Source: Eubacteriales bacterium (GTDB lineage: Bacteria; Bacillota; Clostridia; Lachnospirales; Lachnospiraceae). Taken from it: DNA of 64,000 nt. The stretch is from assembly GCA_030536575.1 (NCBI GenBank), contig JAUNPS010000024.1:1-64000 (forward strand), given 5' to 3'. The notes below the pieces were generated by a model, which did not search any database, had not been told where the DNA came from, and saw only the letters and a list, made by a program, of their open reading frames with translations. Shown here piece after piece: positions 2,902 through 26,709 of this stretch; the stretch's first letter is position 1, and the number at the start of each line of letters is the position of its first letter. The position numbers were made by a program, and so were the translations under genes.

Positions 2902-2948
2902 CTTTTCCGGGAATCTTTCCAAAAATTGACGCAAAGTCCCTTTTCCCC

Positions 2949-3227: not shown

Positions 3228-3230
3228 CGC

Positions 3231-3257
3231 AAAAACGGCTGTTCTGCCACCGTTTTT
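3231..3257 (-). terminator. clpX terminator
   Basis: AAAAACGG, an 11-nt loop, CCGTTTTT. It starts 4 nt after the clpX stop and is symmetric enough to work in both directions. Confidence 0.7.
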
Positions 3258-3260
3258 CTT

Positions 3261-6750: not shown

Positions 6751-6870
6751 ATGATTACCTCCTGCAATTCCTTGTTTGTTTTTTCTTTTCTATGTTTTCG
6801 AGTTTATCAGTCAATTGTGTTTAATTTGTGATAAATGTTTTAAGAATCTTTGAAAAACAAACGGTAAATT

Positions 6871-7797: not shown

Positions 7798-7801
7798 CTG
7801 T

Positions 7802-8929: not shown

Positions 8930-10336
8930 CTAGTATGCATTTTTGTTGACAAACCCTTTGAAAAAGGTCATCAGAATGATCTTCAGATCCATTCCAACTG
9001 TCCAGTTTTCGATATAATACAAGTCGCAGTCGATCCGCTTTCGAATGGAAGTATCCCCCCGAAAGCCGTTCACCTGGGCCCATCCGGTCATGCCGGGCCG
9101 CACCTGGTGCTTGACCATGTATCTGGGGATTTCCTCCCGGAATTTTTCCACAAACTGGGGACGCTCCGGCCTGGGGCCCACCAGACTCATATCGCCTTTC
9201 AGCACATTGATGATCTGCGGAAGCTCGTCGATACTGGTACGCCGCATCAGCTTGCCGACCGTGGTCACCCGCGGGTCATTTTTTGTCGTCCAGCAGCTTT
9301 TTTCTTTGGATTCCTCCTGGACTTCCATGGAACGGAATTTGTACATGTTAAAAGGTTTGTTATGGAGGCCTACCCGCTCCTGCTTATAGATCAGCGGCCC
9401 TTTGGAAGTCGCTTTAACCAGAATAGCCGCGATCAGCATTACCGGCGAAAAAACCACCAGCGCCAGCAGCCCGCCGACAATGTCCATCGTGCGCTTGATC
9501 ATCTTATTAAAGGAATTGCTGAGGGGCACATGGCGGATATTGATCACCGGCAGCCCCATCAGATCCTCCGTATAGGGCTTCGTCGGAATGATGTTATTAT
9601 AATCCGGGATGAACTTCGTATGCACGCCGGACTTTTCGCACAAGGCAACGATATGTTCCAGCTTATAGTATTCGCTTAAGCCCAGGGTAATCGCGATCTC
9701 GTCCAGGCTTCCAAAGGGCAGGATCACATTCAGATTCTCGATTCTTCCAATGACCTTTACCCCTTTATACATCGTGCCCCGCTCCACATTATCGTCCAGG
9801 ATGCCCCGGACACGGTAGCCCCACTGGGGGTTCTGGTTAATCCGGTCAATGTACTCCTCTGCGGCGCGGCTGTAGCCTACCAGAACCATCTGTCGGACAT
9901 TGATCCCCTTTCTCCAAATGCTGGTCAGTGCCATCCGCATCAGGTTCCGCACCAGGATTTCGAAAAAGATGTTCAGTACATAAAAAATGAAGACCATCTT
10001 TCTGGAGAAATCGATCATCTGTTCCTTCATCAGGAAGGATACCGATAAAAACACCAGAACTACGATGGTATTCGCTTTGATGATGTTGCTGATTTCCAGA
10101 CGCCGTCCCTGAACCCGCTTGGAAGTATACAGGTTAAAGGCGTAGTATAAAAACAGCGTACCCGGTATAAAGCATACCAGCGCTGTCATATAAACGGAAA
10201 ACGGCAGTTTTCCCGTCGTCTCGTCCCGGATCAGTTCAAACTGAATCAGCCAGGCCAGCAAATAGGACCCGGCTATCACCAGAATATCTAATAGCAACTG
10301 TATGCGGTTAATCAGCTTCTGATTATTATCTTCCAT
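8930..10336 (-). CDS. Undecaprenyl-phosphate sugar phosphotransferase (polyisoprenyl-phosphate hexose-1-P transferase)
   Basis: 468 aa. Four to five N-terminal hydrophobic helices (residues about 10-130) are followed by a Rossmann-like segment (RQMVLVGYSRAAEEYI). The C-terminal bacterial sugar transferase domain has KRTMDIVGGLLALVVFSPV, KGPLIYKQERVG, YKFRSM and LPQIINVLKGDMSLVGPRPE. It starts polysaccharide synthesis by transferring a sugar-1-phosphate to undecaprenyl phosphate, as WbaP or CpsE do. The sugar cannot be told from sequence. It is first in a three-gene unit behind the 10424-10452 promoter. Confidence 0.95.
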   Translation of the reverse strand: MEDNNQKLINRIQLLLDILVIAGSYLLAWLIQFELIRDETTGKLPFSVYMTALVCFIPGTLFLYYAFNLYTSKRVQGRRLEISNIIKANTIVVLVFLSVSFLMKEQMIDFSRKMVFIFYVLNIFFEILVRNLMRMALTSIWRKGINVRQMVLVGYSRAAEEYIDRINQNPQWGYRVRGILDDNVERGTMYKGVKVIGRIENLNVILPFGSLDEIAITLGLSEYYKLEHIVALCEKSGVHTKFIPDYNNIIPTKPYTEDLMGLPVINIRHVPLSNSFNKMIKRTMDIVGGLLALVVFSPVMLIAAILVKATSKGPLIYKQERVGLHNKPFNMYKFRSMEVQEESKEKSCWTTKNDPRVTTVGKLMRRTSIDELPQIINVLKGDMSLVGPRPERPQFVEKFREEIPRYMVKHQVRPGMTGWAQVNGFRGDTSIRKRIDCDLYYIENWTVGMDLKIILMTFFKGFVNKNAY

Positions 10337-11491: not shown

Positions 11492-13339
11492 TCATCCTTT
11501 CCCGGCGGCCTTCCGTTTTTTCGTTTCCTTCCGCGGCTTAATCGAATAGTCGCAGGCCTTCAGCGAAAGATTCCGGTTATAGTACGGGTCGCCCTTTTTC
11601 AGGATATCCAGCCAGTTCGAACGCATATATTCGATCTCGCTCTGGAACCGGCGCTGTTTTTCCGGGGAATCCTCCGGCCCGCGGGTCTTGGATTCGAAAT
11701 GGTACATTTCCACGTAGGGATTGTAGACGACCAGGTAGCCCGCCCGGCGCACTTTCAGGCAGAAATCCACGTCGTTGAAGGCCACTGCCAGCTTCTCTTC
11801 AAAGCCGCCCGCCGCTTCGAACGCCTCCCGTTTCACCATCATGCAGGCCGCCGTCACAGCACTTAAATCCTGCACAAGGGCCACCTTATGCATGTATCCG
11901 GTGCGTTTCCGGCTCATTCCCACAAACAGGCTCCCGGCGCATCCCCCGATTCCCACCGCGATCCCGGCATGCTGGATCGTATCGTCCGGGAAATACAGCC
12001 TGGCCCCCACGATTCCCGTGCCCGGCCGCTGGCAGTACCCCAGCATCTCCTCGATCCATCCCGGCGTGATGACGGTAATATCATTATTCAGGCAGATCAG
12101 GTAATCCCCTTTCGCCTGTGAAATGCCAAAATTATTGATTTTCGAATAGTTAAACGCTTCTTTCCAGTAAACCACCCGGATCCGGTTCTTCCCGTCGATT
12201 TCCTGGTAATACCGAAAAATTTCCTCCGAAACGCTGTTATTTTCCACGATCACAATCTCATAATTCGGATACGTGGTCTTCTCCCGAATAGACGTCAGGC
12301 AGGCTTCCAGCGTCTCCTTCTCATCCTTGTTCGGAATCACAATAGAGACCAACGGCGTTCCCTGCACCGGATAATGCACCCGGTAAAACCCATAGTCTTT
12401 CGTGTGCTCTACCTCGGCTTCCAGCCCCATCCGGTTCAAATGGCCAAGCACCGCCCGTTTTCCTGCATCGTAGGCATACATCTTACTGGCCGGATTATCC
12501 GCTGTGGAGGCCTTATGAATCCGCCAATGATACAAAATTTTCGGAATGTGGGCGATTTTTTCCGTTTTTTCCGTGATCCGCAGCAGGAAATCGTGATCCT
12601 GCGCCCCGTCAAATTCCGCACGAAATCCGCCCACTTCATCGGCCAGACGTTTCCGCACGATCACCAGATGGCAGATATAATTATTCGCACAGAGCAGATC
12701 CGGGTTAAAATCCGGCTTAAAATGCGGCTGGAAATGTTCCGACAGATCCGCCCTCACCTTGTCCTCATCCGTATAGATCAGATCCGGCCATTCCCGCTCG
12801 ATCACGCGGGCCGCCTCGTAAAGGGCATCCTCCGCCAGCAGGTCGTCGTGGTCGAACAGGGCCACATATTCCCCTTCCGCCATCGCGATCGCCGCATTGG
12901 TATTCCCTGCAATGCCGTCGTTTTTTTCCAAAAGCCGGTAGCGGATCCTGGCGTCCTTCTCCTGGTATTCCCTCACCACCGCTTCCACCGCAGACTCCCG
13001 TCCGCTTCCGTCCGCAATGCACAGCTCCCAGTTTTCATAGGTCTGCCGCTGCACGGACTCGATCATCTGACGCAGATATTCCTCCGGTGTCCGGTACGCC
13101 GGCACCACCACGCTGATCTTCACCGGATTTTTCCACTTTCTCCGCTTCTGAGCCGCCCGTTCTTCTTCCGTCAGAAGCCCGTCTTCATACCACTTCTGAT
13201 AGTCTACGGACTGTTCCTCCATCCGCTCGGTCAGGCGCACCCAAAATTCCCTGGGCCCGTAATGCTTCAGATATAAGAGCCCTTTTTTGATATTGTAAGG
13301 CGTCAGACGCCTGAGCATGTGCAAGATTTTTTTAACCAT
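11492..13339 (-). CDS. Tandem-domain family 2 glycosyltransferase (615 aa)
   Basis: It has two GT-A domains. The first starts near residue 75 (ISVVVPAYRTPEEYLRQMIE; DxD region FDHDDLL); the second near residue 335 (VSIVIPNKDEKETLEACLTS; CLNNDITVITPGW; VAFNDVDFCLKVRRAGY). The tail KKGDPYYNRNLSLKACDYSI closely matches the tails of the 814- and 841-aa enzymes upstream, so the three are paralogues. This one lacks their N-terminal beta modules. It likely acts as a bifunctional or processive polymerising transferase at the cytosolic membrane face. The start overlaps the aminotransferase stop by 8 nt. Confidence 0.92.
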   Translation of the reverse strand: MVKKILHMLRRLTPYNIKKGLLYLKHYGPREFWVRLTERMEEQSVDYQKWYEDGLLTEEERAAQKRRKWKNPVKISVVVPAYRTPEEYLRQMIESVQRQTYENWELCIADGSGRESAVEAVVREYQEKDARIRYRLLEKNDGIAGNTNAAIAMAEGEYVALFDHDDLLAEDALYEAARVIEREWPDLIYTDEDKVRADLSEHFQPHFKPDFNPDLLCANNYICHLVIVRKRLADEVGGFRAEFDGAQDHDFLLRITEKTEKIAHIPKILYHWRIHKASTADNPASKMYAYDAGKRAVLGHLNRMGLEAEVEHTKDYGFYRVHYPVQGTPLVSIVIPNKDEKETLEACLTSIREKTTYPNYEIVIVENNSVSEEIFRYYQEIDGKNRIRVVYWKEAFNYSKINNFGISQAKGDYLICLNNDITVITPGWIEEMLGYCQRPGTGIVGARLYFPDDTIQHAGIAVGIGGCAGSLFVGMSRKRTGYMHKVALVQDLSAVTAACMMVKREAFEAAGGFEEKLAVAFNDVDFCLKVRRAGYLVVYNPYVEMYHFESKTRGPEDSPEKQRRFQSEIEYMRSNWLDILKKGDPYYNRNLSLKACDYSIKPRKETKKRKAAGKG

Positions 13340-14459
13340 AGAATTCCTTTATCGACGCTGTGACATGCGCCCTGTCTTCCTCAGTGATCTGGTAATACAT
13401 GGGAAGCCGCAGAAGGCGGTCGCTCTCCTTTGTGGTATAGCGGTCTTCCCCGTGGAACCGCCCGAATTTCCGCCCGGCCGGGGCCGAGTGCAGCGGCACG
13501 TAATGAAAGACGGTATGTATCTGGCGCTCCCGCAGAAAGGCGATCAGCTTCGCCCTGGTTTCCTGGTCGGCGGTTTTTATGTAGTACATATGTGCATTGT
13601 GAACCGCGTAATCCGGGATGAACGGCTGCTCGATGCAGCCCCGCTCTGCCAGCTCTTTTAACTCTTCGTCATAAAACTTCCAGGTATCCATCCGGTTCTT
13701 CGTGATCTCGTCCGCCATCTCAAGCTGGGCCCACAGATAGGCCGCGTTTAAGTCGCTTGGCAGATAGGACGAGCCGTAATTCACCCAGGTATATTTATCA
13801 ATCTGCCCGCGGAAAAATTTACTGCGGTTCGTGCCTTTTTCCCGCAGAATCTCCGCTTCTTCCATGATCCGGTCGTCGGCAAACGCAATCGCTCCGCCCT
13901 CCCCCATGGAAAAATTCTTCGTCTCATGAAAACTGAAGCAGCCGAAATCGCCGATGGTTCCAAGGGCCTTCCCTTTGTAATAGGCGCAGACCGCCTGGGC
14001 CGCATCTTCCACCACCTTCAGATGATGGCGGTTCGCAATCTCCATGATTTCATCCATGGCGCAGGCCACGCCCGCATAATGCACCACCGCGATGGCCTTC
14101 GTCTTCTCCGTCACCGCGTCCTCGATCAGCCGTTCGTCGATGTTCATCGTATCCGGCCGGATATCCACAAACACCAGCCTGGCCCCCCGCTGCACAAAGG
14201 CGTCCGCCGTGGAGACAAAGGTATACGACGGCAGGATCACCTCGTCTCCTGGCTGAATATCCGCCAGCACAGCCGCCATCTCCAGGGCATGGGTACAGGA
14301 GGTCGTCAGGAGCACGTGGTTCGTTTCCAGGCGTTCCTCCAGCCATTTCGAGCATTTTTTTGTGAACATGCCGTCGCCGCTGATCTTCCGGTTTTCCACG
14401 GCCTGTTTCATATATTCCATCTCCCTCCCGGTAAAAGGAGGGACGTTAAAATCGATCAT
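13332..14459 (-). CDS. DegT/DnrJ/EryC1-family sugar aminotransferase (RffA/WecE-like)
   Basis: 375 aa, PLP fold type I. Motifs are TTSCTHALEMAAVL, DEVILPSYTFVSTADAF, EDAAQAVCAYYKG and the Schiff-base lysine in FHETKNFSMGEGGA. The N-terminus IDFNVPPFTGREMEYM and overall pattern match RffA/WecE, which aminates dTDP-4-keto-6-deoxyglucose to a 4-amino sugar. This implies a 4-amino-4,6-dideoxyhexose in the polymer. No acetyltransferase partner is seen in the locus. Overlaps YfhO (4 nt) and the next glycosyltransferase (8 nt). Confidence 0.92.
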   Translation of the reverse strand: MIDFNVPPFTGREMEYMKQAVENRKISGDGMFTKKCSKWLEERLETNHVLLTTSCTHALEMAAVLADIQPGDEVILPSYTFVSTADAFVQRGARLVFVDIRPDTMNIDERLIEDAVTEKTKAIAVVHYAGVACAMDEIMEIANRHHLKVVEDAAQAVCAYYKGKALGTIGDFGCFSFHETKNFSMGEGGAIAFADDRIMEEAEILREKGTNRSKFFRGQIDKYTWVNYGSSYLPSDLNAAYLWAQLEMADEITKNRMDTWKFYDEELKELAERGCIEQPFIPDYAVHNAHMYYIKTADQETRAKLIAFLRERQIHTVFHYVPLHSAPAGRKFGRFHGEDRYTTKESDRLLRLPMYYQITEEDRAHVTASIKEFYG

Positions 14460-16825
14460 GTCGTTTTTGTCCTTTCTTGCTTTGCGTACACCACGAGATA
14501 TCCCAAATAGAGGAGCCAGAAAACAAGGCTGAGGCCGATTCCTTCTTTCAGGTACGGCGCATGGAACGACAGCGTAAAGGTATGGCTTCCTTCCTCCACC
14601 CGCACGGCGGTGAATCCAAGATCCGCCCGGACAAGCTCCTGCGCTTCCCCGTCCACCGTAATCGTCCAGCCCTTCTCAAAGGGAATTGTAAACAGCACAT
14701 AACCGTCTCCCGGTGCTTCGATGCTTCCGGTCAGGCGGCTGTCCCTGCCGTCCTCCCGCACCGTCACCAATGCCGTCTGATCCGTTTTCTCCGCCTGTTT
14801 CGCCGCTTCGGAATCCGCGTCCCCGCCGTTTTCCAGCGCAAGATATTTTTCCAGGATCCGGTCTGTCTTGTGCGTACTTTCGGCCTCTTCGGCCTTCTGC
14901 ACAAAAATTTCCTCCGAAATCACCCGGTCTTCCGAATAAAACGTCCCGATACTGGCCGTCTCTTCGCAGCCATAGACCTGGATTTCTCCAAAGCTCTGTA
15001 AATATTCGTATCCTTCCGGCGCTTCGCCTTTCGAAAGCAGGTAGCGCACGCCCAGGAACGCGGCGAATTCCCCATCGTCCGCAATCTGGCTGAAACTGTA
15101 ATGGTTCTGATCCGCATAATAGATCTCCGGCCTGCAGACGTCGATAAACTGCTGGATATTCCCATTCTGCATGGAATTGTAGGTGCTGACTCCATGATAG
15201 CCCTGGGCCAGCGCATACATCGTCGCATCGTTCTCGGAAAAAGTCTTTTCTACCCGGTAAAACTCCGGATCGTTTTCCGAAATCCACGCCAGTGCATCCG
15301 CCACGTCCGGGTCGTAGACATAGGCCAGATATTCCGTATCATCCGCCGTAACGGTCTGCCTGTCTGTCACGGTGCCGATTCCTTCCAGACACATATTCAG
15401 AACCGCAAGGGCCATCATTGCCGTCCAAAACGTTTTCTGCGTAAAAAAGGTTTTCTTTGTCCCCTGAATTCCCACACAAAAAACCCCCAGAACTGCGACC
15501 ACGGCCATCCCAAGCGTCAGCGCTTTCTGAATCCCAAGAGTGGTAACCGAAAGGCCCATCCGGTAAACATACACCGCCGCAGCTCCTGCCGCCAGCATCC
15601 CAGGCAGATTTCCTTTCCCGCCTTCCAGAAAATAATCCAGCATCCTGGCCATCATCAAGGCGAAAAACGGCATCAGCGCAAAGGTGTAACGGCTGGACAT
15701 CGCACTGAACCCATTATACACCGTCCCCACAAAGGGGAACAGCAGGGAAAAAATGACCAGAGCCACAGCCCCGTAAAGCACAGCCTTTTTATACACCGAA
15801 CATTTCCGTTTTGCAAGCGTCAGCACATACTGTACGGAAAAAATCACGAAAAAGGTGGAGGCAAATACCTGGGGCGCCTCATAATAGTTCATTGCCCCCG
15901 CATAATCCCCGTTTTTATTCTGGAGATTCGCGGAAAAGAAACGGTAAAGCAGCGTCTTATAATATTCCCGGTCCAGCGGCAGAAAACCCGCCAGAAGCCG
16001 CTCGATAAGCGTCTGCTCACTCTCCAGCCTGGACGTCACGCCCAAAATCACAAATGCCGACGGCAGCATGACGCAAAGCCCCATCCCGACGCCAAGCAGC
16101 ATCCCAAGGCAGACTTTTCCGAAAACAAGCAGCCGCCTTTTCACCGGGCATCCTTCCATCAGCAGCACCCGGAAAATCAGGTAAATCCCCGTCGTCAGGC
16201 AGCACATGTAGGAAAGATAGGTACTGTAAAACATGGTCAGGCAGACCGCCAGGGGCAGGCCCGGCCGGATCTTTTTCGCCCGCAGGGAGCGCTCCGCCAT
16301 CAGCAGCAGGAACGGCAGATAAAACATGACCATTCCAAACTGATAATGCTGCCCCCAGACCATCAGAAACCCGTTCAGCCCATAGATATAAGCCGCAAAC
16401 AGTTTCGCGCGCTCCGACAGCGAAAAGGCCGACAAAAACAGATAGCCCATCAGCCCCGCCGCCAGAATCCGCAGGATCTGAATCCAGGCCAGATAATCCA
16501 GCATGTGCTCCGGCCCCAGAAAGACCCCAAGGGCATACAAGAGCATCAGAGACGGGTCGAACAGATTCATCTGATAGACATTGACGCCGAACCCGTTTGA
16601 AAAATCCCACAGGCTGAACGTGCCGTCCCGCAGATGGTTCACGATCGAATGGTACTGCATAATGTACTGCTGCCAGGTGTCGCTTCCAATGTCCGTAAAT
16701 GTCAGATAGGCGTCCCCAAACAGGAAGGGGGCATAAATCACCAAACCGCTTCCAAACAGCAGGGCCAGCAGAATCCAGATTGTTCTTCCTTTTTTTTGTA
16801 GCTTCTGCATGTCATTACTCCGCAT
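14456..16825 (-). CDS. YfhO-family multi-pass membrane protein
   Basis: 789 aa with about 12 or more hydrophobic helices in residues 15-480 and one at the C-terminus. The N-terminal region with LTFTDIGSDTWQQYIMQYHS, then FSNGFGVNVYQ, matches YfhO. An extracytoplasmic beta-rich part lies between about 500 and 755. YfhO proteins are GT-C-like enzymes; in Bacillus and Listeria they glycosylate teichoic acids outside the membrane. I infer that this one adds a side sugar from a lipid-linked donor to the exported polymer. Start ATG 16825 follows AAAGGG; ATG 16810 is possible. It is coupled to the aminotransferase by overlap. Confidence 0.85.
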   Translation of the reverse strand: MRSNDMQKLQKKGRTIWILLALLFGSGLVIYAPFLFGDAYLTFTDIGSDTWQQYIMQYHSIVNHLRDGTFSLWDFSNGFGVNVYQMNLFDPSLMLLYALGVFLGPEHMLDYLAWIQILRILAAGLMGYLFLSAFSLSERAKLFAAYIYGLNGFLMVWGQHYQFGMVMFYLPFLLLMAERSLRAKKIRPGLPLAVCLTMFYSTYLSYMCCLTTGIYLIFRVLLMEGCPVKRRLLVFGKVCLGMLLGVGMGLCVMLPSAFVILGVTSRLESEQTLIERLLAGFLPLDREYYKTLLYRFFSANLQNKNGDYAGAMNYYEAPQVFASTFFVIFSVQYVLTLAKRKCSVYKKAVLYGAVALVIFSLLFPFVGTVYNGFSAMSSRYTFALMPFFALMMARMLDYFLEGGKGNLPGMLAAGAAAVYVYRMGLSVTTLGIQKALTLGMAVVAVLGVFCVGIQGTKKTFFTQKTFWTAMMALAVLNMCLEGIGTVTDRQTVTADDTEYLAYVYDPDVADALAWISENDPEFYRVEKTFSENDATMYALAQGYHGVSTYNSMQNGNIQQFIDVCRPEIYYADQNHYSFSQIADDGEFAAFLGVRYLLSKGEAPEGYEYLQSFGEIQVYGCEETASIGTFYSEDRVISEEIFVQKAEEAESTHKTDRILEKYLALENGGDADSEAAKQAEKTDQTALVTVREDGRDSRLTGSIEAPGDGYVLFTIPFEKGWTITVDGEAQELVRADLGFTAVRVEEGSHTFTLSFHAPYLKEGIGLSLVFWLLYLGYLVVYAKQERTKTT

Positions 16826-16835: not shown

Positions 16836-19280
16836 TCAGATCCGTTTCAGGGAAAAGTCCTGGCTGTCCAGAGTCAGGTTCGGGTTATAGTACGGATCTC
16901 CCTTTTGGAAAATGTCCGGCCACTTCTGTTCCAGCATCGCGATTTCCCGTTGGAATCTGGCCAGCTTTTCCGGCGTATCCTCAAGCCCTCTGGACTTTGA
17001 TTCATAATGATACAGCTCCGCGTAAGGGTTGTAAACCACCAGATACCCGGCGGCTCCCACCTTCAGGCAGAAATCAATATCATTAAAGGCAACCTTCAAA
17101 TCCTCACTCAATCCCCCAACTTCCTCATACACTTTCCGCTTTACCATCATGCAGGCCGCCGTCACCGCACTGTAATCCTGGGCGCAGATGATCCGGTGGC
17201 AATATCCGGTGAAATCCCGCTTCTGCTGCACAAAACAGTGTCCCGCAATGCCGCCGAAGCCGATCACCACTCCGGCATGCTGGATCGTATCGTCTTCATA
17301 ATACAGCCTTGCGCCCACTGCTCCCACATCGCTTCGCATACAGTAGCCCAACAGCTCTTCCAGACAGTCCGGATTGATCATTTCGGTATCGTTGTTCAGC
17401 AGCAGCAGGTATTCGCCCTTTGCCGCCTTTACGCCGAAATTATTGATGGCGGAATAGTTAAATTCGCCGTCCCAGTAAACCACTTTCACATTTCCTTTGG
17501 ACGCTTCCAGCTCTTTGTACCATGCAAAAGTCTCATCCTCGGTACTGTTATTTTCCACAATAATAAATTCATAATTCCGATATGTGGACTTCTCCTCGAT
17601 GGAATCCATACACCGCTTCAGGTCACGGATATGATCCTTATTCGGAATGATGATCGAAATCAGCGGATCATAGGAACGGATGAAATGCGTCCGGTAAAGG
17701 CCAAGGTATTCGCCTTTCTCCACCTTCGCCGGAACGCCGATGCGCTCATAATGCGCGGCGACAGCCCTGGCTCCCGCGTCGAACGCGTACATCTTGCTCT
17801 CCGGGTTCTCCGCCGTGGAATCCTCATGGCTTCTCCAATGGTACAGCACCTTTGGAATGTGGCAGATGTGCTCCGCCTGCTCCGTACAGCGGAACACGAA
17901 ATCATAATCCTGTGCCCCGTCAAACTCCTTCCGGAGCATCCCCACTTTGTCCACAAGCGTCCGTTTCGCCACAAACAGGTGGCAGATGTAATTCACCGTG
18001 CACAGCAGATCCAGGTTAAAGTCCGGTTTCATATGGGGCTGGAAAAATTTATTTCCGTCCATGGACATTTTATCTTCATCCGAGTAGATCACATCGGTTT
18101 TCGGTTCGTTATTGACCGCCAGGGCGCATTCGTACAGGGCATTCGGCGTCAGGACGTCGTCATGGTCGGCAAAAACCAGATAATCCCCCGTGGCCGCCTC
18201 TATCGCCGCATTCGTATTTTCCGAAATCTTCAGCGGCTCCTCATGGGCCAGCACACGGATCCTGGCGTCCATCTTCTGATATTTCTCCAGAATCTCTTTC
18301 AGCGGGGAATCGGCCCCGCTGCCGTCGGACAGGCACAGTTCCCACTTGGTGTAGGTCTGGTTCTGGATGGACTGGATGAGCTGTTCCAAAAATTTCTCCG
18401 GCGTCTTGTAAAGGGGCACTACAATGCTGAACAGCGGCTGCACCGCAAAAGAGGTCTTCCGCTGCTTTTCCAGCTCGCCGGGCCCCGGCAGATGCTTTGC
18501 GATCCATTTCTGGTAGTCCACCGGCTTTTCTTTATCCGTGAAAAATTTCCGGTAGACTTTCGCCCCAAGAGCCTGCATGCCGTGGGCGCGGTAATAGTCC
18601 ATTCCTTTTGTCCAGTATTTCTCCGCCTTTTTCTTCAGGATCGCCCCTTTGGCGGTGTGCACCACATAGACGCACTTCCGCTCCTTTGTCTTAAACATTA
18701 AATAGACGGCTTTCGGCGGAATTTGGTTCAGTTCAATATAAAATCCGCATTTTTCCTGCACCGGGCACTCCTTATACATCTGTACCACGTCGAGCCTTGC
18801 CGTCCGCTGAATCTGGCAGGAAATTTTCTTTTTATCCTGGTCAAACAGTGCAATCTGCACGTCTTCCCGATCCGCAGCCCACCCCCGAAGCCTGAGCGTT
18901 CCTTCGGCGGGGTTCACCAGCTCTTCCTCAAGGAAAAACTGCGGCCGTTTCCATTTCTTTTCCAGTTCCCCAACCGCGGTTTCATACCAGGTTTTCCGCT
19001 CGCTGCCCGCACAGGCATAAACAAACAGCCGCTTAAAGGAGCTAAGCTCCTCCGGCAGACGCACGGAAACCGTCACTTTTTCCCCGTTTAACATCTCGGA
19101 CTCCGAGAAACGTTCCAGAGCGCTGGTGCTTTCCCAGGGCTCTTTGGACGCAGGCACTTCCTGTTTGTCCAGGTATGCCTTCAGATCGTATCCCTTCGGC
19201 CAGTTTCCCTGGAGCAGGTACACCTGATCTTCCAGCAGATGGAACCGGTCGCGCTTCACTTCCAGTAATTGCGGTTTCAT
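16836..19280 (-). CDS. Three-part glycosyltransferase: N-terminal beta module plus tandem GT2 domains (814 aa)
   Basis: Residues about 1-210 form beta modules, including LRLRGWAADREDVQIALFDQ followed by a KCGFYIELN element. GT2 domain 1 starts near residue 288 (FSIVVPLYKTPEKFLEQLIQ; FADHDDVLT) and domain 2 near 545 (ISIIIPNKDHIRDLKRCMDS; LLNNDTEMINPD; FNDIDFCLKVGAAGY). The tail is KGDPYYNPNLTLDSQDFSL. The frame extends to 19355, but ATG 19280 overlaps the previous stop (ATGA) and follows GGAGGGG. It is paralogous to the 841-aa neighbour and the 615-aa enzyme. Likely a polymerising rhamnan-type or heteroglycan transferase; specificity unknown. Confidence 0.9.
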   Translation of the reverse strand: MKPQLLEVKRDRFHLLEDQVYLLQGNWPKGYDLKAYLDKQEVPASKEPWESTSALERFSESEMLNGEKVTVSVRLPEELSSFKRLFVYACAGSERKTWYETAVGELEKKWKRPQFFLEEELVNPAEGTLRLRGWAADREDVQIALFDQDKKKISCQIQRTARLDVVQMYKECPVQEKCGFYIELNQIPPKAVYLMFKTKERKCVYVVHTAKGAILKKKAEKYWTKGMDYYRAHGMQALGAKVYRKFFTDKEKPVDYQKWIAKHLPGPGELEKQRKTSFAVQPLFSIVVPLYKTPEKFLEQLIQSIQNQTYTKWELCLSDGSGADSPLKEILEKYQKMDARIRVLAHEEPLKISENTNAAIEAATGDYLVFADHDDVLTPNALYECALAVNNEPKTDVIYSDEDKMSMDGNKFFQPHMKPDFNLDLLCTVNYICHLFVAKRTLVDKVGMLRKEFDGAQDYDFVFRCTEQAEHICHIPKVLYHWRSHEDSTAENPESKMYAFDAGARAVAAHYERIGVPAKVEKGEYLGLYRTHFIRSYDPLISIIIPNKDHIRDLKRCMDSIEEKSTYRNYEFIIVENNSTEDETFAWYKELEASKGNVKVVYWDGEFNYSAINNFGVKAAKGEYLLLLNNDTEMINPDCLEELLGYCMRSDVGAVGARLYYEDDTIQHAGVVIGFGGIAGHCFVQQKRDFTGYCHRIICAQDYSAVTAACMMVKRKVYEEVGGLSEDLKVAFNDIDFCLKVGAAGYLVVYNPYAELYHYESKSRGLEDTPEKLARFQREIAMLEQKWPDIFQKGDPYYNPNLTLDSQDFSLKRI

Positions 19281-21802
19281 TTTTCCCCTCCGAATAACTC
19301 CTGGTAAACCTCCGGAACCTCGTGTTCCCGCCGGATGGAGCAGTCGCCGTAACAAAGGGTCAGGTTTGGATTATAGTACGGATCCCCCTTGTCCAGCACG
19401 TCCTTCCAGCGCTCCCGAAACAGCCGGATCTCCTTTTTAAAGCGTTCCCGCTTTTTGGGGCTGTCCTCGTTCCCTCTGGATTTGGACTCGTAATGATACA
19501 GCTCGGTTCCCGGATCGAACACGATCAAATGGTCTTTTTCCCGTATTTTCAGGCACAGATCCACGTCATTTAACGCCACGGCCAGCTTCTCCTCGAAGCC
19601 GCCCGCTTCTTCAAACACCGCCCGTTCCACCATCATGCAGGCTCCGGTCACGGCGCTGATATCCTGCTCGGCAATCAGGCGGCCGAAATAGCCGTTGTCC
19701 ACCCGCCGCAAAAAGCTCTGCACATGGCCGGCGAACCAGCCGATTCCCACCACGACGCCTCCGTGCTGGATCGTGTCGTCCGGGTAATACAGCTTCGCGC
19801 CCACAGCGCCCACGTCTTCCCGCTGGCAATACCCCACCATCCGGGACATCCATGAGGGCGTGATCACTTCCACGTCATTGTTTAAAAACAGCAGGTATTC
19901 GCCTTTCGCGTGGCGGACGCCGAAGTTATTGATCGCGGAATAGTTAAAGCCTTTCTCCCACCTCAGCACACGGACATTCTCATGTTCCCGCTGGATTTTT
20001 TCGTAGTAAGCAAAGGTTTTCTCCTCCGTGCTGTTATTTTCCACAATGACAATCTCGTAGTTCGGATAATCGGTCTTTTCAAAAATCGAACGCAGGCACT
20101 GATCCAGCGTCTCCGACTGATCTTTATTCGGGATAATAACCGAAACCAGCGGCGTGCCCTTAGGCTTGAAAAATGTCCGGAAGACGATAAAGACGCCGGT
20201 ATATTCCACCTCCGCGTCGTAACCCATTCTCTGGTAATGCTCCTCCAGCGCGCGCCTTCCCGCGTCGATGGCATAGCGCTTACTGTCCTGATTTCCGGCT
20301 GTGGAGCCTTCATGCGCCCGCCAGTGATACAGGATCTTCGGAACGTGGACAATGCGTTTCGTCCGCTCACAGCAGCGCAGGATAAATTCGTGATCCTGGG
20401 CCCCGTCGAATTCTGCGCGGACCAGCCCGGCCTCAAACGCCAGGCTCTTCCGGATCACGAAAATATGGCAGATATAGTTAATGCTCCGCAGAAAATCCAG
20501 GTTAAAATCCGGTTTGAACCGAGGGGAGGAATACACTTTTCCCGTCTGATCCACCAGATCTTCGTCCGTATAGACAATATCCGTCTCCGGATGCTCATTC
20601 AGCGCCTTTACGATCTCAAAAACGGCCTCTTTCGCCAGCAGGTCGTCATGGTCGGAAAACATCAGGTATTCGCCCGATGCCATCCGGATGGCCGCGTTCG
20701 TATTCCCTGCAATGCCTTCGTTTTTTTCCAGTTTCCGGTAACGGATGCGTTTTTCACCGCCGTAAGTTTTCCTGATAAATTCTCCCAGACCGGCTTTCGT
20801 GCTTCCGTCCGCCAGACACAGTTCCCAGTTTTGGTAGCTCTGAGCCAGCACGGAATCAATCAGTTCCTTCAAATATTGTACCGGTGTGTTATACAATGGC
20901 ACCACAATGCTGACAAGCGGCATGGACGGAAACGTGGTCTTTCGCTGCTTCTTCAGCTCCTTCGGGGAAGCGCTGTGCTTTTTCAGCCAGTAGGCGTACT
21001 TTTCTTCCTCGGTGCTGACTTCTTCCCGGACATAATCCATAAAGCCGCCAAAGCCGGATTTCTGAATGATCTTCCGGTTTTTGGCCAGATTCTTTCGGGC
21101 CAGCACCTTCGCAATCTTTCCTCTTTTCGAATTCTCATAGTCCAGGCGCTTCAGGTTGATTGTATAATCCTTGGTCAGGATATCGTTTTCCATATGGAGA
21201 ATCAGCTTCTCCCCTTCCAGGCTCTCCCGCGGCAATTTGATTTTAAATCCGCACAGATAGCCGTCTTCCTCGCCCCAGGATTTCGTGACGTCGTTTCGGC
21301 AGACCCGCTTGATCTCGCAGGAAATCGGCTGCCTTTTTTCATCCAGAAGGGACAGGCGTTCCTGGCGGAGCGCGTCGATCACCCAGCCCTGCAGCACCAC
21401 ATCGTCTCCGATAATCTTTTCCACATCCAGGAAATAAAGCAGGGCCGCGTCCCGGTATCCCTTCTTCATCTCTTCGATTTTCCGGGTAAACAGATGCTTC
21501 CGCTCTTCTCCCAGAACCAGTACCACGTCCAGAAAATGGTAATTTTTAAACATCTGCTCCAATGCGGTCAGACGAACCGTAAAACCGATCCGGTCGTCCC
21601 GAATAGCAAGATCCGGCCGCGCGGCTTTTACATCCGGCCTGGCCTGTACCACCGTATCACAGGGAAGGCTGACTTTTCCGTCCCCCAGCAGGCAGACCTC
21701 CACCCTTCCCGGCTGGCTGGATACGGCCCAGCCGTTTAACAGGTAGGTTCCGCCGTTATTCCATCGGTATTCTTCTACGTCAATCTTCGCGGTTATGCTC
21801 AT
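19277..21802 (-). CDS. Three-part glycosyltransferase: two N-terminal beta modules plus tandem GT2 domains (841 aa)
   Basis: The first ~230 residues hold two related beta modules: one with YLLNGWAVSSQPGRVEVCLL, one with VVLQGWVIDALRQERLSLLD followed by CEIKRVCRNDV and CGFKIKLP. GT domain 1 begins near 295 (VSIVVPLYNTPVQYLKELID; FSDHDDLLAK) and domain 2 near 555 (VSVIIPNKDQSETLDQCLRS; FLNNDVEVITPSW; LNDVDLCLKIREKDH). The shared C-terminal signature is KGDPYYNPNLTLCYGDCSI. It overlaps both neighbours by 4 nt, so its product is probably made stoichiometrically with the kinase and the 814-aa enzyme. The beta modules may bind the growing glycan (inference). Confidence 0.9.
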   Translation of the reverse strand: MSITAKIDVEEYRWNNGGTYLLNGWAVSSQPGRVEVCLLGDGKVSLPCDTVVQARPDVKAARPDLAIRDDRIGFTVRLTALEQMFKNYHFLDVVLVLGEERKHLFTRKIEEMKKGYRDAALLYFLDVEKIIGDDVVLQGWVIDALRQERLSLLDEKRQPISCEIKRVCRNDVTKSWGEEDGYLCGFKIKLPRESLEGEKLILHMENDILTKDYTINLKRLDYENSKRGKIAKVLARKNLAKNRKIIQKSGFGGFMDYVREEVSTEEEKYAYWLKKHSASPKELKKQRKTTFPSMPLVSIVVPLYNTPVQYLKELIDSVLAQSYQNWELCLADGSTKAGLGEFIRKTYGGEKRIRYRKLEKNEGIAGNTNAAIRMASGEYLMFSDHDDLLAKEAVFEIVKALNEHPETDIVYTDEDLVDQTGKVYSSPRFKPDFNLDFLRSINYICHIFVIRKSLAFEAGLVRAEFDGAQDHEFILRCCERTKRIVHVPKILYHWRAHEGSTAGNQDSKRYAIDAGRRALEEHYQRMGYDAEVEYTGVFIVFRTFFKPKGTPLVSVIIPNKDQSETLDQCLRSIFEKTDYPNYEIVIVENNSTEEKTFAYYEKIQREHENVRVLRWEKGFNYSAINNFGVRHAKGEYLLFLNNDVEVITPSWMSRMVGYCQREDVGAVGAKLYYPDDTIQHGGVVVGIGWFAGHVQSFLRRVDNGYFGRLIAEQDISAVTGACMMVERAVFEEAGGFEEKLAVALNDVDLCLKIREKDHLIVFDPGTELYHYESKSRGNEDSPKKRERFKKEIRLFRERWKDVLDKGDPYYNPNLTLCYGDCSIRREHEVPEVYQELFGGEK

Positions 21803-23043
21803 TCATGCTTCCTTTCAACCATATCGCGGTATTTTTGATAAACTTTCCACACTTTGGTATTCTGCATCTCGCTCAATACCCGGCTGTGAAGCTCTAACTG
21901 CCAGACCCATTCGGATGCTTTCTTCATCGGTAATTCATCCACAGGCCAGATCTGGAAGGAAAAGGCCAGCTTTTTCGCCCCCTGGGGCAGATCGCCCAGG
22001 ATAATCGCAGGGTCGTCTTTTTCAAAACAGAGGTACTGGCCGCTTCGGATTCCCCCGGCAATGCCTGCCCGCTCCGTCATATCTTGTCCGTCCACGGAAA
22101 GTTCCATGATTTCCACAAAGCAGGAGGACGAACCCGGATCGATCCGCAGGGCGCTCCAGCCCGGCTCCAGTTCCAGAATTCCTGACACTTTTTTCTGTCG
22201 TACCGGAAATCTTTTCGAATTTTCCTCTCTGAAACCATTCCCGGCGTCATAATAAATCTGAACATTCTCAAAATGTCCCCGCAAATCCATCTCGATCAGG
22301 CCGGGACTGATCGTGTCATACAGGTCGCGCACCGGAATGTGATCCCGACACACATAATGCTGGAGGTTTTCCTCCATTTTATCGTAAGCTTTGATCTCCT
22401 CCGGGGTGATTCCCATTTCTTTATAGAAATTATAATCCCGGAGATAATCTCTGCCGGCATGCTCTTTAAAGTAAAAAATGTTTCGGTAAAGCAGAAAATT
22501 GACCGGAATCGGAAAGTCGAAACTCCATTCGTAGTCAATGACGGTTCCGGTATTGTCATGCAGAAGGATATTTCCGCATACCAGATCGATGTTCGTCGCC
22601 GGAGCGCACCGCAGCCCCAAAGCTTTCGCATCGGCCTGGAATTCTCCGAAAACATTCCGAAACTGCGCAGTCTCTTCAAAGACCTGTCCGGAATGCATAT
22701 CCCGGATTTCATACAGATATTTCCGGAACAGGTCTGCCATGGCCTCCATGCCCTTTTCTTTTTCTACCTCTTCCAGGTATTCTTCCAGGGACTGGCCTTC
22801 GATGTATTCCAGCCGGACGCCTCCGGTGATGATCTCACATTTGTTATAGTTCAGCCAGGTTCCCTCACAGGCTTTCGAGAACACCTGGTACCAGCGGTAA
22901 AGCTCCGCCATATGAAGCTGTCCTTCCGGGAACGCGCAGACTTTCCGGACGAAACGCGTTCCGTCTTCTTCCTCGCAGATATCCGTGCGGATGGCAAACC
23001 GGTAATTGCGCTCATTGGAAAATTTCGAATAAATTACCTTCAT
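21799..23043 (-). CDS. Kinase-fold protein, possible glycan-capping kinase (WbdD kinase-like)
   Basis: 414 aa. Residues about 1-240 look like a protein-kinase/APH fold: a lysine in FVRKVCAF, hinge-like RLEYIEGQSLEEYLEEV, a catalytic-loop equivalent NIDLVCGNILL (Asp, then Asn five residues on) and a metal-site equivalent VIDYEWSF. The usual HxD histidine is Asn. Residues about 265-375 are beta-rich, and the C-terminus (LHSRVLSEMQNTKVWKVYQK) is helical. Its start overlaps the methyltransferase stop by 4 nt. Together they mirror WbdD of E. coli O8/O9a, which phosphorylates then methylates the chain end. Capping function is inference. An APH-like small-molecule kinase is the alternative. Confidence 0.65.
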   Translation of the reverse strand: MKVIYSKFSNERNYRFAIRTDICEEEDGTRFVRKVCAFPEGQLHMAELYRWYQVFSKACEGTWLNYNKCEIITGGVRLEYIEGQSLEEYLEEVEKEKGMEAMADLFRKYLYEIRDMHSGQVFEETAQFRNVFGEFQADAKALGLRCAPATNIDLVCGNILLHDNTGTVIDYEWSFDFPIPVNFLLYRNIFYFKEHAGRDYLRDYNFYKEMGITPEEIKAYDKMEENLQHYVCRDHIPVRDLYDTISPGLIEMDLRGHFENVQIYYDAGNGFREENSKRFPVRQKKVSGILELEPGWSALRIDPGSSSCFVEIMELSVDGQDMTERAGIAGGIRSGQYLCFEKDDPAIILGDLPQGAKKLAFSFQIWPVDELPMKKASEWVWQLELHSRVLSEMQNTKVWKVYQKYRDMVERKHE

Positions 23044-23972
23044 GCTTTGGCCTCCTCTTTTTCCAGCATTACCAGGAGGGAATTTGAAAATTCAGGGAAC
23101 AGCCCGTTGTCGATCAGAGTATCGAAAACCCTGGCTTCGTCGAAGAGCTTCAGTTTCGGCATGTCAAAATTGCAGACATTGTCTTTAAGTTCCCCTTTTC
23201 TTGGCAGATAGCGGTCTGAATAGATGGAATACGGGAATTTATAGTCCGGATAAGGGTAGTAAAATGTGGTTTTGAAGTCTCCGGAGCGGCCGATGACTTC
23301 CAGAAGTTCTTTTCTGGAATAGGTGCGCACGCCCGTGGTATTGTGGTAGCCTTCCAGCCCCTCGAAATATTTTCCTACGTGGTCTTCTGCGCATCCGCCC
23401 CAATATTTCAGGCCCAGGCGGTTCTCGATCGCGATAACGATCTTCCCGCCGGGAGCCAAATGCCTGGCCATGCAGCGCAGCATCGTCTCCGCCGGATGGT
23501 CTTTTCCCATATAGCTCTCCGCATATTCAAACACCCCGATCAGGGTGATGTAATCGAAGGTGTCCGCCAGATGCGGCTCCACGTCCAGGAAATTTCCCAC
23601 CTGGATCGTCAGATTGTCGTATTCCCGATTCCGCCAGGCATTGATCTGGCTCCGTTTTTTGGAAAGCTCCACGCAGGTCACCTGGCCGCTTTTTCGGGCC
23701 AGTGCTCCGGTAATCGCCCCGCAGCCTGCGCCGATTTCCAGCACCCGGTCGGTTCCCTGAAAGGGAATCCAGCTCACAATGTTCTGCCGGATCGGGGAAA
23801 AATGATACAGAAACGGCCAGCTCGCCTTCTCGGCAATAATCCTAGGATAGTCCTTCTCCTGGCAGTGCTCTGCCGTTTCCAGCAGTTCGTCCTCAATGGG
23901 GCCGTCACTGTAAAGATCTTCTCCCGCATAATAGGTATAGTCCAGCGTTACTTTCCCGATTTTCTCCTGCAT
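23040..23972 (-). CDS. Class I SAM-dependent methyltransferase, possible glycan-capping enzyme
   Basis: 310 aa. A SAM-binding motif I VLEIGAGCGAITGALA lies near residue 77, with motif II-like CVELSKKR and post-motif LIGVFEYAESYMG. A distinctive IAIENRLGLKYWGGCAEDH segment near 180 is followed by YYPYPDYKFPYSIYSDRYLP. It is cytosolic, with no membrane helix. It is placed between wzt (10 nt gap) and the kinase (4 nt overlap); start ATG follows AGGAGG. The methyltransferase-then-kinase order equals the domain order of WbdD. I infer methylation of the polymer end or its phosphate. A sugar O-methyltransferase acting inside the repeat unit is the alternative. Confidence 0.88.
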   Translation of the reverse strand: MQEKIGKVTLDYTYYAGEDLYSDGPIEDELLETAEHCQEKDYPRIIAEKASWPFLYHFSPIRQNIVSWIPFQGTDRVLEIGAGCGAITGALARKSGQVTCVELSKKRSQINAWRNREYDNLTIQVGNFLDVEPHLADTFDYITLIGVFEYAESYMGKDHPAETMLRCMARHLAPGGKIVIAIENRLGLKYWGGCAEDHVGKYFEGLEGYHNTTGVRTYSRKELLEVIGRSGDFKTTFYYPYPDYKFPYSIYSDRYLPRKGELKDNVCNFDMPKLKLFDEARVFDTLIDNGLFPEFSNSLLVMLEKEEAKA

Positions 23973-23981
23973 GGAAGCCTC

Positions 23982-25241
23982 CTAATCTTCTGTAACCGAA
24001 ATTTTTGAATTCATATCATAAAAGCCCACCGTATCTTTGACGGATACGACGGTAATGCTGCATGCATCGTAGAGCCTGTGGAAGACCCGGAAATTCCCGG
24101 CCAGGTATCCGGTGCAGCCAAAACAGATCAGGTACTGGCCGCCCTGGAGATTCATGAGCTGGGTAAAGGAAACGACCACGGTGGTTCCCTGTTTTGCCGG
24201 GACATTGATCTTCTCGTACATCGTATTCGTTCCTGTGATTTCCGTTCCTTTCATGTCTTTGATCGTAAAGGCGATGATCGGCTCGGACAGGTTTTCGTTA
24301 AAATGGATCTTCAGTTTAAAGGTGCAGTCCGTACCTTTTTCGATGGTATTTGACAGCTTTCCCTTTTCATCGAAGATACCGAAGTCCACGATCTCTGCCT
24401 GCTTTTCTCCGTACTCGGACAGGTGGGGATTAAGCTGAAGTTCGCCCTTCCAGGTTCCGTCTCTCTGCTCGATGGCAGTCACACTCTGGTCGCCCTCCTG
24501 GTGAACCAGGAAGCGTTTATAGAGGTCGACCATCTCCTTTGGCCCGCCTTCGGCCACTTTATCGCCCTGGTTTAAAAGAATTACCCGGTCGCAGTATTTG
24601 CTGATGCTGCTCAGGTCGTGGCTTACGAACAGGATGGTCTTTCCGTTTTTCTTAAATTCTTCGAATTTGTGGTAGCATTTCGCCTGGAAAAAGACGTCGC
24701 CCACGGACAGGGCCTCGTCGACGATCAGGATTTCCGGGTCAATGTTAATCGCCACCGCAAAGGCCAGCCGCACGAACATGCCGCTGGAATAAGTCTTTAC
24801 CGGCTGGTCGATAAAATCGCCGATGTCGGCAAATTCGATGATATCCGGCAGGCGGCGCTCAATCTCTTCTTCCGTGAAGCCCAGCATCGTGCCGTTTAAA
24901 TAGACGTTTTCGATTCCGGTGTATTCGCCGTTAAATCCGGCGCCCAGTTCCAGCAGGGCGGAAATGCGTCCGTCCACTTTCACGGTTCCGGAGCTGGGGG
25001 TCAGGACGCCGGTGATGATCTTCAGGATCGTGGACTTTCCGGAACCGTTTGTTCCGATGATGCCTACGGTCTCCCCCCGCATAACGTCGAAGGAGATATT
25101 CCGCAGGGCGTGGTACTCCCGGTGCTTTTTTTTGCGGACAAGGCCCAGGCTCTCTTTCAGACGGTCGGAGGGCTTGTCGTACAGTTTATAAATCTTTCCT
25201 ACGTTTTCAACCTGAATAGCTTTTTCTTTGTTTGTCTCCAA
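23982..25241 (-). CDS. wzt: Polysaccharide ABC transporter ATP-binding protein with C-terminal Wzt-like domain
   Basis: 419 aa. The ATPase domain covers about residues 1-245: Walker A GIIGTNGSGKST, signature TYSSGMFVRLAFA, Walker B EILIVDEALSVGD, switch His in FVSHDLSSI. Residues about 270-419 form a beta-rich extension of the Wzt C-terminal type (IVDFGIFDEKGKLSNTIEKG; NLQGGQYLICFGC). In E. coli O9a this domain binds the capped chain end and couples export to termination. TagH/RfbB proteins without export-signal recognition lack it. Pairs with the permease 117 nt upstream. Confidence 0.94.
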   Translation of the reverse strand: METNKEKAIQVENVGKIYKLYDKPSDRLKESLGLVRKKKHREYHALRNISFDVMRGETVGIIGTNGSGKSTILKIITGVLTPSSGTVKVDGRISALLELGAGFNGEYTGIENVYLNGTMLGFTEEEIERRLPDIIEFADIGDFIDQPVKTYSSGMFVRLAFAVAINIDPEILIVDEALSVGDVFFQAKCYHKFEEFKKNGKTILFVSHDLSSISKYCDRVILLNQGDKVAEGGPKEMVDLYKRFLVHQEGDQSVTAIEQRDGTWKGELQLNPHLSEYGEKQAEIVDFGIFDEKGKLSNTIEKGTDCTFKLKIHFNENLSEPIIAFTIKDMKGTEITGTNTMYEKINVPAKQGTTVVVSFTQLMNLQGGQYLICFGCTGYLAGNFRVFHRLYDACSITVVSVKDTVGFYDMNSKISVTED

Positions 25242-25358
25242 ATTGTTTTCCTCTTACTCTAAACATCTGCGCCCTGTGTTTCGGGCACACGCTGTTTCGA
25301 AATTTTCGGGGCGCTGCGCCCTTTTTGCGGCCCGGAAAGGGCTTTTCTCCTAATGCCT

Positions 25359-26153
25359 TTACAATACGTCCGCAAAATGTACCCGCAGCCGGTTAAAGAC
25401 CCATTTTCCGAACAAAAACAGAAGAACCGTCACCACCCAGAAATACAGTGTCCATTTCGGGGATTCCCAAAACCAGCGCTTATTCAGCAGGGCGTCCCGG
25501 TAACCGCTTACAATGTAATAGACCGGATTCAGTTTTAAGACCTTCGGCACCCACGGATAATTCGCAAACATCGCATTCACGTCATACATGATCGGCGTCA
25601 GCCAGACGCCCACCTGAAGCAGAATATTTACAATCTGCCCCAAATCCCGGAACAGCACCACCACCGCGCTGGTGGTATAGCTCAGTGCCAGTATCAGCAG
25701 GGACAGGCACACGAAATAATAGATCAGCTGCAAACAGTACAGATCCGGAAAACGTCCGTAAAACGCGAACAATATAAATGTAATGCAGATAAATACCAAA
25801 TGGACAAAACTGGCGGAGACCAGCTTTACAACCGGCAGCACATTGATATTAAAAACAACTTTTTTGACCAGGTAACTGTATTCCAGCAGGGAACTCGTTC
25901 CGTTCATCAGCGCCTCCTGGAAGTAGAGCCACGGCACGATCCCGGCCACCAGATACAGGACAAAGGGAATCGTCCCCACGTCCTGGCCGCCCCGGAATCC
26001 CAGGCCAAACACGAAATAATACACCGCAATAGTCACCAACGGCTGAACCACCGCCCAGACCGTGCCAAAGACCGAACCCGCATAGCGGGTCTTAAAGTCA
26101 TTTTTCGCCAGCTTGTAGATCATGCGGCGGTTCTGATAAATGTCTTTAAACAT
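25359..26153 (-). CDS. wzm: Polysaccharide ABC transporter permease (Wzm/TagG-type)
   Basis: 264 aa, six hydrophobic helices, ABC-2 type. The cytoplasmic N-terminus IYKLAKNDFKTRYAGSVFG, then VWAVVQPLVTIAVYYFVFG, and the late LNPVYYIVSGYRDALL are characteristic. It forms the channel that exports a finished undecaprenyl-linked glycan. The start overlaps the rfbC stop by 8 nt. The 117-nt space before wzt holds no gene. Confidence 0.95.
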   Translation of the reverse strand: MFKDIYQNRRMIYKLAKNDFKTRYAGSVFGTVWAVVQPLVTIAVYYFVFGLGFRGGQDVGTIPFVLYLVAGIVPWLYFQEALMNGTSSLLEYSYLVKKVVFNINVLPVVKLVSASFVHLVFICITFILFAFYGRFPDLYCLQLIYYFVCLSLLILALSYTTSAVVVLFRDLGQIVNILLQVGVWLTPIMYDVNAMFANYPWVPKVLKLNPVYYIVSGYRDALLNKRWFWESPKWTLYFWVVTVLLFLFGKWVFNRLRVHFADVL

Positions 26154-26709
26154 GATGCGCCTTCACCCAGTCGGAGATCCCGCCCCATTTCTGGTCTTTT
26201 TCCGAAATGGTCAGCTCCATGCCCTCCGGGATCGGCCATGCAACGCCGATTTCCGGGTCGTTCCATGCCAGGCCGCCCTCGTCGTTCGGATGATAGAAAT
26301 CCGTGCACTTATAGGCAAACTCCGCATGGTCAGACAGCACGACAAAGCCATGCGCAAAATTCTTCGGGATGAAAAACTGCTTCTTATTCTCCGCAGACAG
26401 CAGCACACCGAACCACTTCCCGAATGTCGGGGATCCCTCGCGCAGATCCACCGCTACGTCGAACACTTCGCCGGACACGACGCGCACCAGCTTGTCCTGC
26501 GGATAGTTGATCTGGAAATGCAGGCCGCGCAGGACGCCTTTTTTCGAAGAAGACTGGTTGTCCTGGACGAATTCCTGGTCGATGCCCGCGGCTTTATAGT
26601 CGTTATAGTTATAGGTTTCCATAAAATAGCCCCGCTCATCCCCGAAAACGGTGGGAGTGATGACTTTCAGGCCTTCGATTTCACAAGTTTCTACCGTTAT
26701 TTTTCCCAT
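26146..26709 (-). CDS. rfbC: dTDP-4-dehydrorhamnose 3,5-epimerase
   Basis: 187 aa cupin. Motifs are TPTVFGDERGYFMETYN, DNQSSSKKGVLRGLHFQ (catalytic His in LRGLHFQ), VVSGEVFDVAVDLREGSPTF, FFIPKNFAHGFVVLSD and the C-terminal NDPEIGVAWPI. It converts dTDP-4-keto-6-deoxyglucose to dTDP-4-keto-rhamnose. It is the first gene of the main locus behind the 26824-26852 promoter. The other dTDP-rhamnose genes (rfbA, rfbB, rfbD) are not in this window. It supports rhamnose as one component of the polymer. Confidence 0.96.
   Translation of the reverse strand: MGKITVETCEIEGLKVITPTVFGDERGYFMETYNYNDYKAAGIDQEFVQDNQSSSKKGVLRGLHFQINYPQDKLVRVVSGEVFDVAVDLREGSPTFGKWFGVLLSAENKKQFFIPKNFAHGFVVLSDHAEFAYKCTDFYHPNDEGGLAWNDPEIGVAWPIPEGMELTISEKDQKWGGISDWVKAHHV

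Follow-up and report, generated by a model that had tools for sequence, protein, structure and literature searches.

We analyzed a 64,000-nucleotide stretch of DNA, called the window here (positions 1 to 64,000 of contig JAUNPS010000024.1, assembly GCA_030536575.1), from a Eubacteriales bacterium that, as a member of the Lachnospiraceae, is probably Gram-positive. The window contains a putative system for capping and exporting a polysaccharide, in which six genes lie consecutively and tightly packed on the minus strand, as determined from open reading frames and Pfam searches. They encode the ABC-2 permease Wzm (25359..26153; ABC2_membrane, 3.3e-15), the ATPase Wzt with a C-terminal predicted cap-binding Wzt_C domain, or Wzt-C (23982..25241), a methyltransferase (MT; 23040..23972), a kinase-fold protein (21799..23043), and two proteins that each carry a double glycosyltransferase family 2 (GT2) arrangement (19277..21802 and 16836..19355). 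The kinase gene overlaps its neighbors by 4 nucleotides at both ends, on the MT side and on the glycosyltransferase (GT) side. This is the gene order given by an earlier, sequence-only reading of the same DNA, which had also proposed that the MT and the kinase jointly cap the chain end and that Wzt reads this cap, and the results described below support that proposal.

No Pfam family, that of the APH phosphotransferases included, matched the kinase-fold protein at E<=1, and no credible sequence match to it was found in the PDB. Its predicted structure is a kinase fold, and the closest structural matches are APH enzymes. The catalytic loop is D153-x4-N158 (22570..22587), with K34 at 22942-22944 and D170 at 22534-22536, and these Lys, Asp, Asn, and Asp residues are kept in 64 of 66 related kinases (here and below, kinase counts omit L059, which shares a contig with L040, and L156, which is the same place as L073). 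The two exceptions are L052, which is truncated, and L158, a kinase-GT fusion (positions 460-3702) in which Ser and Glu replace the catalytic Asp and Asn. The structure model also contains both of the additional elements described by the sequence-only reading, namely, a beta-rich domain (aa 258-367, 21943..22272; strands at residues 260-367) and a C-terminal helical tail of 47 aa (21802..21942). When the kinase and beta-rich domains were used together, hhalign extended the alignment up to residue 316 into the carbohydrate-binding module (CBM) region of a Pseudomonas protein described below, but the beta-rich profile alone had no match there. A motif resembling the NTKVWK region follows the CBM-like domain in 13 of the 66 kinase proteins when a loose pattern is used.

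The pair matches the terminator type of Klebsiella pneumoniae O7. There, ORF6 combines two GT2 modules and a coiled coil with an MT, an APH-like kinase lacking annotation, and an immunoglobulin-like CBM; in vitro it phosphorylates a mimic of the repeat unit and methylates the phosphate in part, and a D441A substitution abolishes phosphorylation (PMC11231755). A plasmid-encoded protein of Pseudomonas asturiensis has Y28, Y66, G91, G93, E112, and Y158 at the S-adenosylmethionine (SAM)-site positions published for ORF6, and its kinase-loop Asp is at 443 compared to 441 in ORF6 (PMC11231755). The window MT, which has SAM motif I at aa 77 and an EDH at aa 196-198, is 38% identical to the P. asturiensis terminator over 294 aa (3e-52). 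The MT profile scored 198-202 bits in both this protein and one from Citrobacter braakii, in which wzm, wzt, and the gene for a fused MT-kinase-like protein adjoin dTDP-rhamnose genes. Fused relatives of the window pair aligned by hhalign with these two Gram-negative proteins across 496 columns covering the MT and the kinase (E 5.8e-51), and the kinase with its beta-rich domain aligned with the Gram-negative O7-type proteins at a probability of 92.5% (E 5e-7). The window cluster and the O7 system have in common an MT, a novel APH/AmiN-like kinase, a GT2 polymerase, Wzm/Wzt, and a domain that in the window is tentatively CBM-like (PMC11231755). Resemblance to small-molecule APH enzymes had been named in advance as a sign that the capping proposal was wrong; the closest structures are indeed APH enzymes, but the comparison does not discriminate, because the demonstrated O7 kinase (AmiN) is itself APH-like (PMC11231755). 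That the window protein is an aminoglycoside-type phosphotransferase with no role in glycan synthesis, as those structural matches could imply, is extremely improbable given the missing APH Pfam match, the relatives fused to MTs and GTs, and the coupling to Wzt-C reported below.

Relatives of the kinase protein were sought in 200 genomes of the window's family, its own genome included, and were found in 103 of them, two (G070 and G016) through the beta-rich domain only, with matches that span query residues 260-380. The window's own genome (90.7% complete) has one kinase of this type and one Wzt_C. In a second collection, 21 loci matched, of which 8 are titled Lachnospiraceae and the remainder are from Blautia, Roseburia, Lachnobacterium, Eubacterium, a few further names, and one Coriobacteriales. 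At E<=1e-10, a profile of the fused MT-kinase had matches in 17 of the 398 phylum genomes searched; in at least 3 of these, the match was confined to the MT part. Two scans of viral collections returned no relatives, a protein search of plasmids returned 2 records, and the C. braakii gene had no match at the DNA level in E. coli genomes. Four architectures occur among the relatives: separate MT and kinase, MT-kinase, kinase-GT, and a single MT-kinase-CBM-GT-GT chain (1,524 aa in L046 and 1,890 aa in L092). The MT is a separate neighbor for 34 of the 66 kinases and is fused in 28, and no MT was detected near the other 4, which include L052 at a contig end. The fused proteins carry MT and kinase in the same order as the window genes, which agrees with the earlier view that the window holds the two activities as separate genes in fused order. 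On the tree, the split label requires at least 16 switches, 9 of which are forced by well-supported branches.

A Wzt_C match was present in 56 of the 62 stretches around kinase loci, the window included. The kinase was the search query for these loci, so any gene order seen there presupposes it; tests that start from Wzt_C are independent of that choice. When the 200 family genomes were searched for Wzt_C first, a kinase was found within 12 kb of 94 of the 101 domains scoring at least 120 bits. The corresponding figures were 2 of 28 for domains of 60-120 bits and 0 of 14 for those under 60, and at least one of the two links at 60-120 bits reflects the beta-rich domain alone. Among the seven strong domains without a kinase match, L119, L120, and L122 do carry an MT-kinase gene that was missed by the first search, L121 and L125 are on short contigs, and L123 and L124 lack a kinase in the stretch but have a kinase match elsewhere in the genome. 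The window Wzt scores 140.4 bits for Wzt_C (PF14524; cut-off, 30.4). In a Wzt-C tree, the kinase-linked rows fell into one group of 62 (58 linked plus 4 others), with moderate support at the fork (81/88). One linked row inside this group and the sole linked row outside it proved to be non-Wzt ATPases. Rows L054_690 and L157_8589, which are not Wzt, were removed from the Wzt-C alignments. The top PDB match of the Wzt-C profile was 2R5O, the O9a Wzt-C (PMC6286764), at 4.5e-26 with two Gram-negative rows among the 16 in the profile; without those rows it was still the top match (2.4e-14), followed by Aquifex aeolicus (2.9e-9). Judged by sequence, the window Wzt-C thus belongs to the same class as O9a Wzt-C, a reader of methyl phosphate. 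Six other Wzt-C rows (L147, L148, L149, L152, L153, and L155) form a separate group beside beta-rich-domain proteins; in five of the six, the beta-rich domain is joined to a different methyltransferase, and L147 has an HAD-GT protein plus a separate beta-rich-domain protein.

The linked Wzt-C group is also distinguished by particular residues. The Wzt homologue of A. aeolicus, to which the window protein aligns over residues 9-399 (4.9e-83), likewise has a cap-binding domain; it reads a 3-O-methyl sugar via Trp362, which stacks on the methyl cap, and a W362L change essentially abolishes binding (PMC9445017). In that column, the window Wzt instead has Arg389, within R389-L-Y391-D392 (24066..24077), a signature common to phosphate-type cap readers. 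After alignment to A. aeolicus, all 61 rows of the linked group had Arg and Tyr391, and 59 of them had Asp392; the 61 are 57 rows with a kinase in the stretch, counting both of the identical rows L040 and L059, plus 4 further rows of the group. None of 29 unlinked rows had Arg in this column (26 gaps, 2 Trp, 1 Tyr). Because 26 of the 29 were gapped there, R-x-Y-[DEN] was also counted without an alignment, and it was found in 57/57 linked rows, 4/4 other rows of the group, 2/2 Gram-negative rows, and 0/29 unlinked rows. The sequence DRRYD occurs in the Wzt of E. coli O9, C. braakii, and P. asturiensis, and Trp occurs in E. coli O8 and A. aeolicus. The E. coli O9 cap is methyl phosphate (PMC11231755), and that of E. 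coli O8 is methyl (PMC3482155). The R-x-Y residues may already have been described in work on Wzt cap-binding domains.

A second draw covered 49 Wzt_C places in the 398 phylum genomes, of which 33 were taken and 30 could be assigned a signature (L162, L163, and L169 are from the window's family); in the three others (L168, L183, and L190), R-x-Y-[DEN] was not found in the last 180 residues. RYD was present in 6 of the 30 rows, and a kinase was at the locus in four of these (L162, L164, L181, and L184), compared to 1 of the 24 other rows (L194, with HYD), a difference with a Fisher p of 0.0026 in a small sample aligned automatically. For a fifth RYD row, L163, the kinase is elsewhere in the genome (L178). 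In the sixth, L175, positions 5712-8389 encode an MT and a second protein, which combines a CBM-like domain and a coiled coil with an APH-like part that differs from the window kinase family. The kinase-like part of the L175 protein was missed by the kinase profile and has a weak Pfam APH match below the cut-off (E 0.0049), and L175 is a possible independent kinase terminator. Two rows with R-x-I-D have a sulfotransferase-like protein directly after wzt (L171:9160-12684 and L172:7554-8732; weak Sulfotransfer_3 match, about 25 bits against a cut-off of 27), so that a sulfate cap is possible at these loci. Of seven rows with Trp, at least five have a methyltransferase within the next two genes (L165, L167, L177, and L186, with a weak match in L185); for L180, only GTs were found in the single gene tested.

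Taken together, these results make it likely that the window pair is a terminator related to the O7 type of K. pneumoniae but divided between two proteins, and that it would place a (methyl)phosphate cap for Wzt-C to read before export. In the proposed mechanism, the GT2 polymerases would build a lipid-linked glycan, and the kinase protein, perhaps aided by its own CBM-like domain, would phosphorylate the non-reducing end, which would halt chain growth. The MT would then methylate the end phosphate. The C-terminal domain of Wzt is predicted to bind the capped end via a pocket containing R389 and Y391, and Wzm/Wzt would export the chain only after this binding, following which a LytR-CpsA-Psr (LCP) protein of the cluster may attach it to the wall.

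Several observations weigh against relating the window to the O7 type in this way. The link to O7 ORF6 goes through the P. asturiensis protein with its matching residue numbers and not through the ORF6 sequence. The kinase profile gave a weak match in the P. asturiensis protein (27.3 bits; best stretch, 18.9) and none at E<=10 in the C. braakii protein, and the beta-rich-domain profile matched neither; taken alone, the sequence link of the kinase to the O7 type is moderate. O7 ORF6 is a single polypeptide with a central coiled coil and belongs to a Gram-negative lipopolysaccharide pathway (PMC11231755), whereas the window has two proteins, a short tail, and an LCP gene; no long coiled coil was found in the window kinase protein, only the 47 residues after the CBM-like domain, although 28 of the 66 relatives are single MT-kinase polypeptides. 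In genome G510, an MT-kinase gene is accompanied by a Wzt_C that lacks R-x-Y, the two being on different contigs (L168 and L200). R-x-Y may be a sign of common ancestry and not of chemistry, and shared descent of Wzt-C may be the source of the pairing between signature and kinase. Finally, five loci (L195-L199) have MT-kinase genes without a Wzt_C in their 18-kb stretches, so the occurrence of the pair extends beyond capped export.

One alternative is that the kinase makes a phosphate-only cap, which Wzt-C reads, with the MT acting on a sugar hydroxyl or being dispensable. Among 61 MTs, 15 had a degenerate SAM motif I (14 of the 28 fused MTs and 1 of the 33 split ones), in contrast to the near-fixed catalytic residues of the kinases, and Wzt-C Arg and Tyr were retained in all 13 loci that have both a degenerate MT and a Wzt row. 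A pattern filter first flagged 21 of 62 MTs, and these were then inspected by eye; L050, L078, L086, L088, and L090 were removed for a near-normal motif and L034 because a contig end cuts it. With the five near-normal MTs included, the counts rise to 16 of the 28 fused and 4 of the 33 split MTs. That the kinase and Wzt-C residues persist while the SAM motif decays suggests phosphorylation as the invariable element of the cap. The window MT is, however, intact and closest to the type that methylates phosphate (PMC11231755), and we regard a phosphate-only cap in the window as unlikely.

A broader scheme can be put forward tentatively. Here, Wzt-C would carry a cap code in which Arg in R-x-Y-D denotes a phosphate-type cap for any kinase family, Arg in R-x-I-D denotes a sulfate-type cap, and Trp denotes one neutral methyl class; in some Gram-positives with a decayed MT the cap would be bare phosphate, and the kinase would be the invariant terminator, with no long coiled-coil ruler. 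Evidence against a strict code comes from L188, which has IRD followed by a methyltransferase, from the five members of the separate Wzt-C group of six that have a methyltransferase without Trp, from L193 (RFE), a further Arg row outside every class, and from genome G510.

To return to the proposed O7-type terminator, a second alternative is that kinase and MT modify something other than the glycan end, such as the lipid carrier, a side decoration, or a protein. The pair relatives without Wzt_C at L195-L199 fit this idea, as does L195 in particular, which has Wzm and an ATPase lacking the C-terminal domain. The close pairing with one Wzt-C subtype argues against it, and we consider such a target improbable.

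The sequence-only reading had called the pair WbdD-like, which did not hold at the level of sequence. As the reference we used the E. coli HS (O9) protein, in which the published residues are present (L159:17967-20093). Homology of the kinase domain to WbdD was rejected on this comparison (hhalign probability, 1.4%; hmmsearch against a set of 4 sequences, E 0.21), and the MT gave a short match only (53%, 81 columns). A split descendant of O9a WbdD itself would explain the same order of activities, the shared Wzt-C class, and a resemblance of the kinase-protein profile tail (22-33 residues) to WbdD near 567-603 (11 bits; hhalign, 22 columns), but with so little match elsewhere this origin is very improbable. 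The E. coli O8 methyltransferase also resembles the stretch of the kinase profile that covers the C-terminal helix, and the short resemblances to both proteins possibly reflect a shared membrane- or partner-binding helix. WbdD was absent among the matches listed in the PDB profile searches (the best 60 of 131 in one and 5 in the other) and among the 50 structural matches listed, which excludes nothing.

What the window shares with E. coli O9a WbdD and Wzt is a kinase and MT, which in the window would make the cap, and a Wzt-C of the same class with R-x-Y-D (PMC3482155). WbdD, however, is a single protein with a trimeric coiled-coil ruler of about 200 Å (PMC6286764), compared to the tail of 47 residues in the window, so that length control, if any, must differ. 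Legionella and other Gram-negatives have a further kinase-MT family, Lcin_0519, which also combines an MT with an atypical kinase and is encoded close to wzm, wzt, and a GT gene (PMC9758233); its members are fused and the groups named are Gram-negative (PMC9758233), and the likeness to the window pair is judged from the published description. Capping in a Gram-positive, the setting named by the sequence-only reading, is already known as such: the S-layer glycans of Geobacillus have a 2-O-methyl cap that Wzt is predicted to bind (PMC2943079). Like the window system, that of Geobacillus stearothermophilus (WsaE with Wzm/Wzt) is Gram-positive and exports its glycan by an ABC transporter, and it has an MT-GT fusion and a methylated chain end; unlike it, the acceptor is the S-layer protein, and no kinase is described in the available part of the source (PMC2943079). 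For an MT-kinase terminator in Gram-positives, no description was recognized in the open-access literature, judged mostly from titles and the openings of abstracts.

The remaining genes assigned in the cluster are also on the minus strand. Upstream of wzm is rmlC, for dTDP-4-dehydrorhamnose 3,5-epimerase (26146..26709; Pfam). Beyond the second GT gene are those for a YfhO-like membrane protein (14456..16825; Pfam) and, by family assignment, a DegT-family sugar aminotransferase (13332..14459), a Bac_transf initiating phosphoglycosyltransferase (8930..10336), which we take by its family to be WbaP-like, and the LCP protein, a candidate wall ligase (7802..8917). At the window edge (143-871) is a WbqC-like protein gene, after which come two genes for small membrane proteins of the EamA type.

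If the proposed function is correct, about half of the sampled genomes of this probably Gram-positive family use a capped, quality-controlled route to surface polysaccharide that has been described chiefly for the O antigens of Gram-negatives. Because MT and kinase are separable, one can ask which step ends chain growth and which one licenses export, and the numerous natural fusions and splits provide a comparative set. The contrast between Arg and Trp in Wzt-C, if it holds, would be of use in predicting the chemistry of a cap from the Wzt sequence.

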